Of a DNA stretch of 64,000 nucleotides, positions 32,009 through 36,972 are shown one piece after another (positions within the stretch are counted from its first letter, which is position 1; each line of letters starts with the position of its first letter). This DNA is from Acidobacteriota bacterium (GTDB taxonomy: Bacteria > Acidobacteriota > Terriglobia > Bryobacterales > Bryobacteraceae), in assembly GCA_016185425.1 (NCBI GenBank), contig JACPNQ010000040.1, forward strand, positions 62,001 through 126,000, read 5' to 3'. The notes beneath the pieces were generated by a model. The model did not search any database, was not told the DNA's origin, and saw nothing but the letters and a program-made list of their open reading frames with translations. The position numbers were made by a program, and so were the translations under genes.

Positions 32009-33333
32009 GTGATTCTGTAGTCGTTCTCGGCGCCGGTTTGGCCGGCTCCGAAGCCGCGTGGCAACTCGCCCGGGCCGGCGTCAATGTAGACCTGTTTGAA
32101 ATGCGGCCCGGCCGCTCCACCTCCGCCCACCAGACCGATCAAATGGCGGAATTGGTGTGTAGCAACTCGCTCAAAAGCGAGGCCGAAAACTCCGCGCCCT
32201 GGCTATTGAAGCAGGAACTCCGCCGCCTTGGCTGCCTGCTCATGGACGCCGCCCAGGTTGCCCGCGTCCCCGGCGGCCAGGCGCTCACCGTCGATCGCGG
32301 CATCTTCTCGCAATTCATCTCGGAGAAAGTCGCAAGCCATCCGCTAGTCACGCTCCATCGCGAAGAGGTCCGCGAGATCCCCGCGGCTGGCATCGTTATC
32401 ATCGCCACCGGGCCGCTTACCTCGGACGCCCTCGCCCAGGACATCGCCCGCGCGACCGGTGTCGACAGGCTCTACTTCTACGATGCCATCAGCCCCATCG
32501 TCGAAGCCGATTCCATCGACTACTCCATCGCCTTCCGCGCCTCCCGCTACGGCAAGTCCATGGACGCCTCCGACGACTACGTCAACTGCCCCTTCGACAA
32601 GGACGAGTACAACACGTTTATCGACGCCCTCCTCGAAGCGTCCAAATACGATCCTCATATCCCTGAGGACAACACGCCCTACTTCGAATCCTGCCTCCCC
32701 ATTGAGGAGATCGTCCGCCGCGGCCGCGACACGTTGCGCTTCGGTCCTATGAAGCCCGTCGGTCTCACCGACCCGCGCACCGGCCGCTGGCCATACGCAG
32801 CCGTCCAACTCCGCCAGGAAAACCTCCGCGCCGACAGCTACAATCTCGTGGGCTTCCAGAACAGCTTGAAATTCGGCGAACAGGCGCGCGTCCTCCGCCT
32901 GGTCCCCGGACTCCGGGATGCGAAGTTCGTTCGCTTCGGCCAGATCCATCGCAACACCTACATCAACGCACCCGCCTGCCTGACGCCCACGCTCCAACTC
33001 AAGTCCGACCCGCGCATCTTATTCGCCGGTCAGATATCGGGCGTCGAGGGCTACGTCGAATCAATCGCCACTGGTCTGATGGCCGGTCTCCACGCCGCCA
33101 GCATCCGCAAAGGCATGGAACCCCGCCCGTTCCCCCGCGAAACAGCGCTGGGCTCCCTCTGCCACTACATCACCGGCGCCGATCCCAGGAACTACCAACC
33201 AGCCAACATCACCTTCGACCTGCTCCCGCACCTCGACGAACAGACGAAGAAAAAGTTCCGCCACGACAAACGCGCGCGCCACGCCGAAGTGTGCCGCCTG
33301 GCTGCCGGCGCGCTCGACGCCTGGAGCGCATAA
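32005..33333 (+). CDS. trmFO: Methylenetetrahydrofolate-tRNA-(uracil-5-)-methyltransferase
   Basis: 442 residues. Flavoprotein that makes m5U54 (ribothymidine) in tRNA with methylenetetrahydrofolate and NAD(P)H. The FAD-binding VVLGAGLAGSEAAWQLARAG starts the protein. MRPGRSTSAHQTD and LVCSNSLKSE (catalytic Cys region) follow. Near the C-terminus are AGQISGVEGYVESIATGLMA and GSLCHYITGADPRNYQPANI. GTG start overlapping dgt; the next gene begins at the last base of its stop (TAATG). Gram-positive-style and acidobacterial genomes use this enzyme in place of TrmA. Confidence 0.95.
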   Translation: MSDSVVVLGAGLAGSEAAWQLARAGVNVDLFEMRPGRSTSAHQTDQMAELVCSNSLKSEAENSAPWLLKQELRRLGCLLMDAAQVARVPGGQALTVDRGIFSQFISEKVASHPLVTLHREEVREIPAAGIVIIATGPLTSDALAQDIARATGVDRLYFYDAISPIVEADSIDYSIAFRASRYGKSMDASDDYVNCPFDKDEYNTFIDALLEASKYDPHIPEDNTPYFESCLPIEEIVRRGRDTLRFGPMKPVGLTDPRTGRWPYAAVQLRQENLRADSYNLVGFQNSLKFGEQARVLRLVPGLRDAKFVRFGQIHRNTYINAPACLTPTLQLKSDPRILFAGQISGVEGYVESIATGLMAGLHAASIRKGMEPRPFPRETALGSLCHYITGADPRNYQPANITFDLLPHLDEQTKKKFRHDKRARHAEVCRLAAGALDAWSA

Positions 33334-34226
33334 TGCCCGAGCTACAGGCGGAAATCACGAACTTCCTCGACGGACTCCGCCGCGAGAACGCCTCGCCCAA
33401 CACCATCCGCAACTACGAAATCGATCTCCGCCAGTTCGCCGGTTACGCCGCGCCCGCTGCTCCGCCGCTCGAAGAGATCGACCTCTTTCTTCTCCGCGAA
33501 TGGGTCTCCACGCTCTTTCACGACGAAAAGATGGCCGCGACGATTCGCCGCAAAGTCGCCGCTCTCCGTGCATTTTTCAAATTCACCCTTCGTCAGGGGC
33601 TCACCAGGAGCAACCCCGCCAAACTTCTCATTCTTCCCAAGCTCCCCAAGACTCTCCCAAGAGTCCCCACCGCGGAGTCGGTCAACAATCTTGTCGACGC
33701 CGTCGGCGACAACAACCTCGATCGCCCCTTCCCCAAACGCGATCGGGCGATTTTTGAATTCCTATACGGATGCGGCCTCCGCATCAGCGAATTGGCGGGT
33801 CTCAATCTCGAAGACATCGACACGAGCGAGCAGTGGCTCCTGGTCCGTGGCAAGGGCCGCAAAGAGCGCCAGGTGCCTTACGGATCGAAGGCGGCGGAGG
33901 CGTTAACGAACTGGCTCCCCGAACGCCATCCGCACGAAGCCGCCGAACGCGCCGTGTTTCTGAACTACAAAGGCACTCGCCTCTCCACGCGCAGTATCCG
34001 CCGAATCGTCGCCCTCTACGCGCGCCTGTTGGCAGGTGACAGCAGCGTCCATCCTCACACCCTCCGCCACGCCTTCGCGACCCACCTTCTCAGCGACGGC
34101 GCCGACCTCCGCGCGATTCAGGAGCTCCTCGGCCACGCCCAGCTCTCTACGACGCAAAAATACACGCAAGTTTCTCTGACGGATCTATTATCGGTGTACG
34201 ATAAGGCCCATCCCAAGGCGAAGTAG
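33333..34226 (+). CDS. Tyrosine recombinase XerC/XerD
   Basis: 297 residues from ATG 33333. SAM-like N-terminal core (EITNFLDGLRRENASPNTIR), then a catalytic domain with Arg in YGCGLRISELAGLN, Lys in GKGRKERQVP, the H-x-x-R box HPHTLRHAFATHLL, His/Trp-position LGHAQLSTTQKYTQV with the nucleophile Tyr. All six catalytic residues are present. It resolves chromosome dimers at dif with a partner Xer protein. The third gene of the dgt-trmFO-xer operon. Directly downstream starts a degraded region. Confidence 0.9.
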   Translation: MPELQAEITNFLDGLRRENASPNTIRNYEIDLRQFAGYAAPAAPPLEEIDLFLLREWVSTLFHDEKMAATIRRKVAALRAFFKFTLRQGLTRSNPAKLLILPKLPKTLPRVPTAESVNNLVDAVGDNNLDRPFPKRDRAIFEFLYGCGLRISELAGLNLEDIDTSEQWLLVRGKGRKERQVPYGSKAAEALTNWLPERHPHEAAERAVFLNYKGTRLSTRSIRRIVALYARLLAGDSSVHPHTLRHAFATHLLSDGADLRAIQELLGHAQLSTTQKYTQVSLTDLLSVYDKAHPKAK

Positions 34227-34227
34227 T

Positions 34228-34356
34228 TTCCCGGCGTTCGGCATTCTGGCGCTCACCAAGATGGACTGGAATAACGACGCCCTCTACGATCCGCTGCCCG
34301 TAACCTTAGGAATACGCAAAAACCATTGCGCGCGGGACGCCTACCTAAGCCTTTGA
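34228..34356 (+). pseudogene. 3' scar resembling the C-terminus of a prokaryotic Argonaute
   Basis: Directly after the recombinase stop, the frame of 34237 reads FGILALTKMDWNNDALYD and then PLPVTL. This is the pattern of the PIWI C-terminal end of long prokaryotic Argonautes (LxLTKxNWNxxxxxxxxPIT). After a single-base slip at about 34312 the next frame reads GYAKTIARGTPT before TAA 34346, again matching the family's terminal helix. Nothing of the MID or catalytic part is present. The piece is only about 40 codons, so it is a remnant that cannot be active. The call rests on recognition of this motif and needs a profile search. Confidence 0.6.
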
Positions 34357-34398
34357 TACATCGTGGCTTATCGTCGTTTGCGAAGATTGAGACAGCTA

Positions 34399-34420
34399 TT
34401 CTACGCATAAACGCGTAGAA
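34399..34420. promoter_or_regulatory. Operator-like palindrome O1 upstream of fic
   Basis: TTCTACGC (34399-34406) and GCGTAGAA (34413-34420) form a perfect 8-bp inverted repeat with 6-bp spacer. The half-site CTACGC recurs in the second palindrome at 34453-34471. It lies just upstream of the -35 element (34424). Confidence 0.7.
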
Positions 34421-34423
34421 TAT

Positions 34424-34452
34424 TTGAGCCTGCGGCGATTACCGGCTATAAT
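34424..34452 (+). promoter_or_regulatory. Near-consensus sigma70 promoter of fic
   Basis: TTGAGC at 34424-34429 and TATAAT at 34447-34452 are separated by exactly 17 bp. The transcription start would fall near 34459, inside palindrome O2, and the leader before the fic start codon (TTG 34473) is only about 14 bases. O1 ends 3 bp before the -35 and O2 begins right after the -10. Confidence 0.75.
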
Positions 34453-34471
34453 CTACGCAAGGAGTGCGTAG
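34453..34471. promoter_or_regulatory. Operator-like palindrome O2 overlapping the fic RBS
   Basis: CTACGCA (34453-34459), AGGAG, TGCGTAG (34465-34471): a perfect 7-bp inverted repeat whose spacer is the AGGAG ribosome-binding site. Centre-to-centre distance to O1 is 52.5 bp, five helical turns, so both sites face the same side of the DNA. In RNA the same palindrome could fold into a hairpin that hides the RBS. Confidence 0.7.
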
Positions 34472-34472
34472 T

Positions 34473-35591
34473 TTGTATATTCATGAGCTCAAGGACTGGC
34501 CTCGGCTCCATTGGGACCGCGAGACGCTCGCGGAGCCTCTGGCGTCCGTTCGTCACCGTCAGGGCAGGCTGACTGGGCACATGGAGGCCCTGGGATTCAA
34601 CCTCAGGCAGGAAGCCGTGCTCCAGACGCTGACGGCCGATGTCCTCAAGAGCAGCGAGATTGAAGGCGAGAAACTGGACCCCGAACAGGTGCGCTCGTCG
34701 ATCGCGCGCCGGCTTGGTATGGATATCGGCGCGCTCAAGTCGGCTGACCGTCATGTCGAAGGTGTGGTTGAAATGATGCTCGATGCGACCCGGCACTACG
34801 ATCAGCCGCTCACCGGCGAGAGGCTGTTCGCCTGGCACGCGTCGCTATTCCCGAGCGGGCGCAGCGGGATGACAAAGATCAGGGCATGGGCCTGGCGCGA
34901 CGACAGCACGGGACCGATGCAGGTCGTGTCGGGGCCGATAGGTAAGGAGCAAGTCCACTATGAAGCGCCGAAAGCGGAGCGCCTCGACGCTGAGATGCGC
35001 GCGTTTCTCGACTGGTTCGAAAGCGAATCCGGCATCGATCCTGTGTTGAAGGCCGCGCAGGCGCATCTTTGGTTTGTCAGCATCCACCCGTTCGACGATG
35101 GCAACGGCCGCATAGCGCGCGCCATCGCCGATATGGCTCTCTCGCGTTCCGAACGCAGCCCGCAGCGCTTCTACAGCATGTCGGCGCAGATCCGGCAGGA
35201 GCGGAACGCCTATTACGACATTCTGGAAGAGACACAGAAAGGGACGATGGACATCACGCCGTGGGTGAAATGGTTCCTCGGCTGCATGGGCCGCGCCATC
35301 GACGGGGCGCAGACGGCGCTGAGCGCCGTTCTCTCAAAGGCGCAGTTCTGGGATCGCGTACGCGGCATCCCCATGAACGAGCGGCAGCGGCTTGTCCTCA
35401 ACAAGCTGCTGGACGGATTCGAAGGAAAGCTTACGACGTCCAAGTACGCGAAGCTGACCGGCTGTTCGCACGACACGGCGCTGCGTGACATTATGGCTCT
35501 CGTTGAGCGGGGGGTCCTTGTGCGGAACCCGGCAGGGGGCAGAAGCACGAGTTATGACCTTGCCACCCTCGCGGAGGAACCAAGCACGTGA
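34473..35591 (+). CDS. Fic/DOC family protein with DUF4172-type N-terminus and C-terminal wHTH
   Basis: 372 residues. The Fic fold transfers AMP or another nucleotide onto target hydroxyls. The start TTG 34473 is 8 bases after AAGGAG and gives MYIHELKDWP, the family's usual opening; GTG 34464 lies inside the RBS. An N-terminal inhibitory helix carries SSEIEGE (S/TxxxEG, about residue 60), so this is a class II self-inhibited Fic. The catalytic loop HPFDDGNGRIAR (about residue 205) is complete. A winged helix occupies about residues 305-365 (KLTTSKYAKLTGCSHDTALR). Its stop overlaps the next, broken gene by 3 bases (GTGA). The C-terminal HTH makes autoregulation at O1/O2 plausible. Confidence 0.9.
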   Translation: MYIHELKDWPRLHWDRETLAEPLASVRHRQGRLTGHMEALGFNLRQEAVLQTLTADVLKSSEIEGEKLDPEQVRSSIARRLGMDIGALKSADRHVEGVVEMMLDATRHYDQPLTGERLFAWHASLFPSGRSGMTKIRAWAWRDDSTGPMQVVSGPIGKEQVHYEAPKAERLDAEMRAFLDWFESESGIDPVLKAAQAHLWFVSIHPFDDGNGRIARAIADMALSRSERSPQRFYSMSAQIRQERNAYYDILEETQKGTMDITPWVKWFLGCMGRAIDGAQTALSAVLSKAQFWDRVRGIPMNERQRLVLNKLLDGFEGKLTTSKYAKLTGCSHDTALRDIMALVERGVLVRNPAGGRSTSYDLATLAEEPST

Positions 35592-36103
35592 TTCTGGCGC
35601 CTCTCGATCTGGTGTCAGCGCATCCGTGGCAGCGCGCCGTATTCACCACATACGCGTTCAGCCTCTCGTTCTTCGAGGCGGTTGTGCTGGAAGCCTTGGT
35701 AAGGAAAGGCGGCCGGCAGGCGCTCATTCTCGCGGATGTGAACGGCGTCCGCGCCAGCATTGGCGAGCAGGGCGCGCAGCGTGTCGGCAAGGACTATGAG
35801 GTAGAACCCGTCGCCGTCTCGAACGGCGTGTTTCATCCGAAGATTTCCGTGCTGGCTGGAATTGATGACTGTCACGTCATAGCCGGCTCGGGCACCCTTA
35901 CCTTCGGCGGTTGGGGCGGCAACTGCGAAGTTCTGGAGCATCTGCACCCCAGCTTTGCGGCGGACGCCATCGCCGATATTGCGGCGTTCTTCGAGTCGCT
36001 GTCGGCGACCGGCCGGGTCAGGCGCTGCGCCGGCGACCAGTGCGCTGTTTCACAATCTGGACCGCTCGATCTCGTAGCAAGCTGCATCGAACCGAATATG
36101 TAG
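35588..36103 (+). pseudogene. Truncated PLD-type nuclease/helicase-associated gene
   Basis: The open frame of 171 codons (GTG 35588, overlapping fic) is only the beginning of a larger protein. SVLAGIDDCHVIAGSGTLTF and GGWGGNCEVLEHLHPSF match the N-terminal PLD-like domain of large proteins found in defence loci, with an HxK-type motif (FHPKISVL, about residue 78). After RVRR the frame is lost at about 36030-36045: another frame reads ATSALFHNLDRSIS, the expected continuation (xHNLDRSI), and stops at TAG 36075. The rest of the gene is absent. The product cannot contain the second PLD half or any helicase part. Confidence 0.6.
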
Positions 36104-36296
36104 GCTTCGCGCCAAGGTTTTCCACCGCTGTAAGATTGCGCGTATTTGAAAATAGCACCGGATGCTTACGGCATAAGTGCCATCTGTCCGGGCTCTGCTT
36201 CGACGCTCATCTGCATTCCTCGACAGCGAGAGCGTGTGACAATCCCGGCTTGCGCGACCAGCCACCCGGTCAACCTCATGTGCAACAGTCTTCAAC

Positions 36297-36573
36297 TCAT
36301 GTTGTAAAGCGCATCGAAGTTGCGCTCATAGTGCTCGAGCTTGGAACCCGCTTGCAGTATCGACAGCCGTACCAGAAGCATCCGCCCACAAATACCACTC
36401 GTTGGGATCGGAAGGCGAAATCCGGCTTGCCCCAAACGTCCGGCGGGTTCATGGTCCAACCACGAATGCCGGCGCGCACCAGACTGGCCCGAAGTCGCCA
36501 CTCCGTAGACTTGTTGTTGAGAGCGCACCTTCGCCATAACCGCTGAGCGGGTCTCTGGGAAGACGCTATCCAC
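36297..36573 (-). pseudogene. Decayed Vsr-like (very short patch repair) endonuclease gene
   Basis: From GTG 36573 (overlapping the preceding stop) the frame reads DSVFPETRSAVMAKVRSQ, the Vsr N-terminus (xSxxxRSxxMxxIRS). A frameshift near 36520 is needed to continue NKSTEWRLRASLVRAGIRGW, then NPPDVWGKPDFAF and VVFVGGCFWYGCRYCKRVP. In intact members the last motif is V-F-V-D-G-C-F-W-H-G-C; here the Asp is Gly and the His is Tyr, so the active and zinc sites are damaged as well as the frame. The C-terminal helix is lost. Normally partnered with a cytosine methyltransferase, which is not present. Confidence 0.65.
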
Positions 36574-36574
36574 A

Positions 36575-36972
36575 TCAGACCTCTTCGCCGGGTTGCACCT
36601 TCGGAATCGCGCCGCCGACTTCCTCAAACCGCCTTGAGGCGAGACTTTCCAGCCTACGACCCTGGGTCACAAGCGTTCGTCTCAAGCCCTTCGATACGTC
36701 GCGTTCGCTGATTACCCTTGCCAGTGCGGCTATGGTTGTTGCCCGTCTTGCGATCCTGATATCGGGGTGCTTGCGTCGGTCATAGAGGTCATCGGGAATG
36801 ATGCGGTCGCGAACGTCTTCCAAGTCCAAAGCGGCCACACTTCAATTTCCGCCACCTCGAAAGGGTTGAGCTCCCAGCCGCCAAAACTCCTACCGGGGAA
36901 ATTTCGCAATCGGCTTGGAGAAACGAAGCGCGCTGCCCGCGTCCTAGCGCAAACAGCGCAGCTCGATACCAC
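36575..36972 (-). pseudogene. Decayed gene of unknown family upstream of the Vsr remnant
   Basis: Two frames read one protein-like sequence: RLRNFPGRSFGGWELNPFEV, then EIEVWPL in one, and DLEDVRDRIIPDDLYDRRK, IRIARRATTIAALARVISER and RRLESLASRRFEEVGG in the other, ending PKVQPGEEV and TGA 36577. The switch is near 36830. The second part has good amphipathic helices, so it was once coding. Its stop overlaps the Vsr start (TGATG), implying one operon. No family was recognised; the location beside Vsr, Fic and PLD fragments suggests a defence-island gene. No start codon is evident at the upstream end. Confidence 0.45.

Follow-up and report, generated by a model that had tools for sequence, protein, structure and literature searches.

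Among class II Fic enzymes with a C-terminal helix-turn-helix (HTH), regulation by the enzyme of its own gene has a precedent. CccR of Yersinia pseudotuberculosis, as the available passages of its report describe it, is a secreted toxin that needs to dimerize and represses its own promoter, which carries inverted repeats near -35 and -10 with the site AGATAATCAT-N26-ATGATAATCT (PMC9755527). CbFic2 (PDB 8cil) was assayed with random DNA, and its authors single out a specific binding sequence as a question of particular interest for later work (PMC10628234). SoFic (3eqx, 3zcn) and the anti-phage Sofic are also class II Fic enzymes; no promoter operator is mentioned in the passages at hand (PMC12249575). 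Here, we analyzed a 64,000-nucleotide stretch (the window) from an Acidobacteriota bacterium (contig JACPNQ010000040.1, positions 62,001 to 126,000), in which six half-sites precede a fic gene. Very probably, this region is an operator through which a class II Fic enzyme regulates its own gene, with Fic dimers that would bind the promoter and repress it. Like CccR, the window locus combines a class II Fic, a C-terminal HTH, and inverted repeats at the -35 and -10 of its own promoter, the arrangement that marks CccR-type autorepressing proteins; the letters and spacing of the CccR site differ from the TGCGNNGA-type half-sites found here at 21 and 12 to 13 base pairs (bp), and the CccR passages mention neither an operator family nor a recognition code (PMC9755527). 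By analogy, the window Fic appears to resemble CccR in its working, with an operator that is not shared; relative to CbFic2, what is gained is a specific predicted target in place of random DNA (PMC10628234).

Fic protein and half-site array

The window Fic matches the Pfam Fic domain (4.2e-16) and DUF4172, and its single chain contains both the catalytic motif HPFDDGNGR and the inhibitory motif SSEIEG (residues 60 to 65). The locus does not fit a class I Fic toxin-antitoxin pair, whose inhibitory helix sits on a separate antitoxin, as the inhibitory motif lies in the Fic chain itself. Translation most likely begins at TTG 34473 and not at GTG 34464, because the homologues L032, L033, L034, and L036 have ATG at this position. 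The structure model (mean predicted local distance difference test [pLDDT] score, 91.9) has C-terminal helices at residues 322 to 329 and 333 to 345, the latter being the last helix ahead of the wing and the putative recognition helix, and strands at 349 to 351 and 361 to 363, of which the last is less confident (pLDDT of 79 for residues 351 to 360 and 67 for 361 to 370). The C-terminal fold of the model is that of 8cil, and Pfam HTH matches fall under their cut-offs. An initial annotation of this DNA had given the protein a C-terminal winged helix and a self-inhibitory motif, and both are borne out, the former by the model. The features discussed here, with R denoting the 8-mer half-site TGCGNNGA and F its complement TCNNCGCA, are as follows.

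34379 to 34386, minus strand: R1, TGCGAAGA, forming with F1 one of only two exact R-N13-F pairs in the genome
34400 to 34407, plus strand: F1, TCTACGCA (sequence, homologue comparison, and genome pattern search)
34412 to 34419, minus strand: R2, CGCGTAGA, deviating at its first base and 1 base nearer F1 than the family norm
34424 to 34429, plus strand: -35-like TTGAGC; the family consensus is TTgc at an equal distance from F2
34431 to 34438, minus strand: R3, TGCGGCGA, within the -35/-10 spacer
34447 to 34452, plus strand: -10 element TATAAT, whose final base also belongs to F2
34452 to 34459, plus strand: F2, TCTACGCA; the transcription start predicted from the -10 lies near its end
34460 to 34464, plus strand: AGGAG ribosome-binding site (by inspection)
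34465 to 34472, minus strand: R4, TGCGTAGT (palindrome search and homologues)
34473 to 35591, plus strand: fic, TTG start, 372-residue DUF4172-Fic-winged helix protein (domain search, homologues, and structure model)
35466 to 35507, plus strand: codons 332 to 345 of fic, with Ser332, His333, Asp334, and the recognition helix 333 to 345 (model and covariation)

The half-sites are ordered R1-F1-R2 and R3-F2-R4, and together they score 30 of 36, compared with a maximum of 23 in 2000 mononucleotide shuffles; the next-best six-part scores elsewhere are 23 on the plus strand and 22 on the minus strand, this locus aside. Two palindromes flanking a TTGAGC-17-TATAAT promoter had been described before; all three are present. 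The upstream palindrome, TTCTACGC-N6-GCGTAGAA, occupies 34399 to 34420, with perfect arms extending over 34397 to 34422 and a chance expectation of 0.00 in 100 shuffles. The downstream one, CTACGCA-AGGAG-TGCGTAG, occupies 34453 to 34471 with AGGAG as its spacer, as described, and the promoter (34424 to 34452; 10 of 12 matches) lies between them. F1-R2 and F2-R4 are therefore real pairs, but they are only part of the array, R1 and R3 having been missed. Counted on 8-mers, their geometry is unequal, F-N4-R upstream and F-N5-R downstream. CTACGC by itself is frequent (34 occurrences in the window, with 25.5 expected), and therefore only its arrangement is informative.

Conservation and spacing of the half-sites

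Homologues were collected from the phylum of the window (matches in 51 of 396 genomes), named genome contigs (the best 80 of at least 579 relatives), viral contigs (51 loci), the phyla to which three named relatives belong (66 of 299, 31 of 296, and 22 of 198 genomes; best loci and fetched stretches), and plasmids (11 of 429 matching records). Copies of the window (L001, L002, L183, and L184) were removed before counting. From 322 other loci, 26 were dropped, namely, 11 viral loci (L172 to L182) without a tblastn match at 1e-15 and 15 whose start was missing, which ran into a contig end, or whose protein was short. This left 296 in which both start and protein were usable, and removal of near-duplicates reduced these to 256 non-redundant DUF4172-Fic loci. 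One of the 15, the close relative L107, has a clear F-R palindrome.

Presence of the half-site at orthologous fic loci had been set beforehand as a check, and it was found there. Requiring a TG start on both sides and agreement at 5 of the 6 remaining positions, R-N13-F (half-site centers 21 bp apart) occurs upstream of 171 of 256 genes and inside 2; an R-F gap of 12 was seen at 21 loci, and none of the remaining gaps between 5 and 23 at more than 3. F-N5-R, the pairing of the palindromes first described, is itself conserved (upstream at 109 of 256 loci, inside genes at 0 of 256), but the most regular unit is R-N13-F. F-R gaps of 15 and 16 were found at 21 and 14 loci, matching the 44- to 45-bp unit spacing; gap 4 was found at 7 and others at 3 or fewer. 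A motif-free palindrome spectrum shows an excess of odd gaps in all four identity bands, including the 55 loci below 40% identity. Among the 126 close loci (identity of at least 60%), the proximal triple R3-F2-R4 reaches the threshold of 14 of 18 in 113, and the upstream triple is also present in 80 of these 113, with a maximum of 11 in shuffled upstream segments. The window itself scores 17 of 18 for the proximal triple and 13 of 18, just below the threshold, for R1-F1-R2.

From R to the neighboring F, in that order, the distance is 21 bp in 153, 40, 28, and 3 cases for the four half-site classes. The distance from F to the next R is more variable: 13 bp in 94 cases of the TGC class, followed by 34 bp in 12 where R2 is missing; 13 bp in 16 and 23 to 24 bp in 8 of the TGA-GA class; and mostly 23 to 24 bp (14 cases) in the TGA-AT class. 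In 51 two-unit loci, the units are spaced by 33 to 34 (9 loci), 44 to 45 (12), 53 to 57 (29), or 74 bp (1). These steps are close to one helical turn, and the phase between units therefore seems to be kept, though not at exactly five turns. The palindrome centers in the window are 52.5 bp apart, as initially annotated, but the reading of this distance as exactly five turns does not hold across relatives: in the 80 scorable of the 113 close loci, the F1-F2 offset ranges from 51 to 57 bp, being 55 bp in 39 and 52 bp, as in the window, in just 8.

Alignment of 111 of the 126 close loci on F2 gives a consensus in which TTgc lies at -28 and R3 at -21, the final T of TATAAT is base 1 of F2, and R4 follows at +13. 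The -10 thus overlaps F2, the spacer is occupied by R3, and transcription would start near the end of F2, at about 34459 in the window. R4 in many relatives includes the Shine-Dalgarno letters GGAG, and its conservation therefore need not come from Fic alone; this explanation does not apply to R2.

In the window's own assembly (6,643,823 bases in 47 contigs, 93.67% complete), exact TGCGNNGA-N13-TCNNCGCA occurs in two places only, R1-F1 and R3-F2, with 0 for the reversed control. Allowing one mismatch, we found 33 sites in this genome, against 24 for the reversed pattern, and no clear regulon. Phage records gave 2 matches at E ≤ 1e-10, neither spanning 80% of the query.

Covariation of the half-site with the recognition helix

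Half-site letters were taken from the 171 loci with the unit, with residues numbered from TTG 34473. Half-site distance tracks overall protein distance (r = 0.796); once the rest of the protein is removed, the best 12-residue segment is 329 to 340 (partial r = 0.384), and segments over the wing (347 to 366) give 0.29 to 0.33, with a median of 0.019 and a 95th percentile of 0.290 overall. Asp334 goes with C at half-site position 3 in 114 of 114 loci, Ala334 with A in 48 of 48, and Thr334 with G in 2 of 2; among the remaining seven, A accompanies Pro (two loci), Met, and Ile (one each), C accompanies Glu, G accompanies Ser, and T accompanies Arg. Mutual information is highest at position 3 for residue 334 and at positions 5 and 6 for residue 333. 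Of the 126 close loci, 8 have His333, and in all 8, T predominates at position 5 (TGCGTAGA, corresponding to CTACGC in the window); T predominates in none of the 118 without it (114 have G, one A, and one C, one is tied, and one lacks a countable site). The window's own sites read T, T, A, and G at this position. His333 takes three parsimony steps across 158 loci, which we read as three origins; three non-His loci in that set count T over G, two of them being mainly A and one having a single T site.

Residue 334 changes ten times on a tree built from residues 1 to 300, each time on one of the 33 branches that also carry a change at positions 3 to 5, which puts it at the top of the 362 columns (uncorrected hypergeometric P = 1.9e-11). 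Position 3 changes five times, always together with residue 334, and four of these changes are on single tips. The earlier proposal that Fic regulates itself through its C-terminal winged helix is strongly supported by this comparison, the half-site covarying with the recognition helix. Covariation of recognition residues with binding sites has likewise been reported for LacI, GntR, IclR, and MerR, in studies none of whose titles names Fic enzymes.

Fic paralogues of the same genome can differ in half-site: L004 and L130 of G370 have TGCGGAGA and TGATTGAT, L199 and L268 of G604 have TGCGGAGA and TGAGCTAT, and L243 and L244 of G689 have TGAGTTAT and TGAGCGAT. A further close G370 copy, L112, was removed as a near-duplicate and stands outside this comparison.

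Proposed mechanism and alternative explanations

From the observed sites, their conservation, and their covariation with the protein, we infer binding, dimer geometry, and repression as follows. Fic would bind as a dimer, probably joined through the DUF4172 helix in the manner of its closest solved relative, with one C-terminal winged helix on each of the two inverted half-sites of R-N13-F, whose 21-bp spacing amounts to two turns and would keep both on one face of the DNA. Unit R3-F2 covers the -35/-10 spacer and the -10, the second unit, R1-F1, sits just upstream of the -35, and the third half-site of each group (R2 or R4) follows 12 to 13 bp past F. Bound Fic should exclude RNA polymerase and would therefore repress its own gene. 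At the start of the recognition helix, Asp334 goes with C at position 3 and His333 with T at position 5, the latter pairing giving this locus CTACGC in place of the family CTCCGC.

Several observations weigh against this model or its details. The strict unit test is failed by 85 of 256 loci and the proximal triple by 13 of the 126 close loci. The third half-site (R2 at 34412 to 34419, R4 at 34465 to 34472, and their counterparts in homologues), 12 to 13 bp from F and sharing a center, is not explained by a single two-fold dimer. For position 4, residue 231 has the highest mutual information, followed by 337, 334, and 333, and for positions 7 and 8 the leading columns lie outside the helix, whose signals there are weak and never first in the tree-aware test. 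Residue 333 ranks only third for position 5 and second for position 6 on the tree; of the 22 changes at position 5, just 9 fall on a branch where residue 333 also changes, and several occur with it unchanged. In the 171-locus set, the window is labeled A at position 5, as only its R1-F1 unit passed. As to geometry, the available passages on CbFic2 doubt that the crystal dimer can set both HTH domains on one DNA of about 20 bp without rearrangement or bending (PMC10628234), and those on CccR invoke 70.2 Å for a 26-bp spacer, not 21 bp from center to center (PMC9755527).

It is also possible, though unlikely, that the operator activates or has a dual role, with R1-F1-R2 recruiting RNA polymerase or looping to the promoter unit, so that low Fic activates and high Fic represses. 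This idea fits the presence of two units, of which the distal one lies immediately ahead of the -35, and the spacing steps near the helical turn in the 51 two-unit loci. The proximal unit, however, covers the spacer and the -10, the classic position for repression, and is commoner than the distal one (113 of 126 versus 80 of 113). An RNA hairpin over the ribosome-binding site, which the initial annotation had offered as a parallel control, is a very improbable basis for regulation here: RNA 34447 to 34500 does fold into a hairpin of -12.2 kcal/mol, but the z score is -1.17 with both arms and +0.51 from the predicted start at 34459. A transcript beginning there would lack the greater part of the 5' arm of the downstream palindrome. 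The distal unit also lies upstream of the predicted transcript, and an Rfam scan of 34227 to 34600 gave no match up to an E value of 1.

Fic binding at these sites is a prediction, and some other regulator might bind the palindromes with fic merely its target; we consider this scarcely credible, given that the half-site follows Fic residues 333 and 334 across subfamilies and on the tree and that the exact sites in its own genome occur at fic only. Sites of the dif type consist of two arms of about 11 bp around a short center, and a XerC-like gene (33291 to 34226) adjoins the 10-6-10 palindrome, which could on that account be its recombination site; this is the least likely explanation of all, as the sites were found through fic genes of many genomes and covary with Fic residues.

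Beyond autoregulation, and rather speculatively, R-21-F-13-R, with three half-sites around one center, may constitute a two-state switch in which promoter DNA is the ligand that keeps the Fic dimer deAMPylating (off). One DNA element would then set the level of free enzyme, its enzymatic mode, and its own transcription, and a widespread, nearly one-residue-to-one-base code would tie each Fic lineage to its own promoter.

Other Fic families and neighboring genes

The window Fic matches the PADLOC SoFic model (4.8e-42, 142.6 bits) and scores 46.3 bits against the NCBIfam SoFic equivalog, whose cut-off is 550. We analyzed 25 of 30 fetched SoFic-type loci (Fic_N, PF13784; L334 to L363), with each gene assumed to begin at its earliest possible start codon. 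Upstream of 15 of the 25 there is an exact palindrome whose arms are 8 or longer, the longest palindromes spanning 29 to 36 bp, with other letters and spacing; gaps of 15 to 17 are the most frequent (0.52 to 0.60 of loci, against at most 0.20 in shuffles), and the 21-bp rule did not appear in these 25 upstream regions. This suggests that other Fic families may have separate operator grammars.

Directly 3' of fic is a short open reading frame (35588 to 36103, plus strand) with a weak PLD-like match (Pfam, 0.03, under the cut-off) and similarity to PDC-M27B (PADLOC, 5.4e-10) over residues 75 to 145 only; it is perhaps a truncated defense gene. Farther on, two overlapping, apparently broken frames at 36292 to 36627 (minus strand) together resemble, by eye, a very-short-patch-repair (Vsr) endonuclease; Pfam and PADLOC searches of frame 36297 to 36627 gave no match.

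Significance

Autoregulation by a Fic-HTH protein has already been published for CccR; as far as our searches of the open full-text PMC literature show, neither the operator family nor the recognition code has been described, and to that extent the operator grammar and the code are what is new here. They provide a predicted specific DNA target for DUF4172-Fic enzymes, and a switch from AMPylation to deAMPylation driven by the operator becomes directly testable with a 29-bp DNA. The code is simple, residue 334 going with base 3 and residue 333 with bases 5 and 6, and would let operators be predicted.
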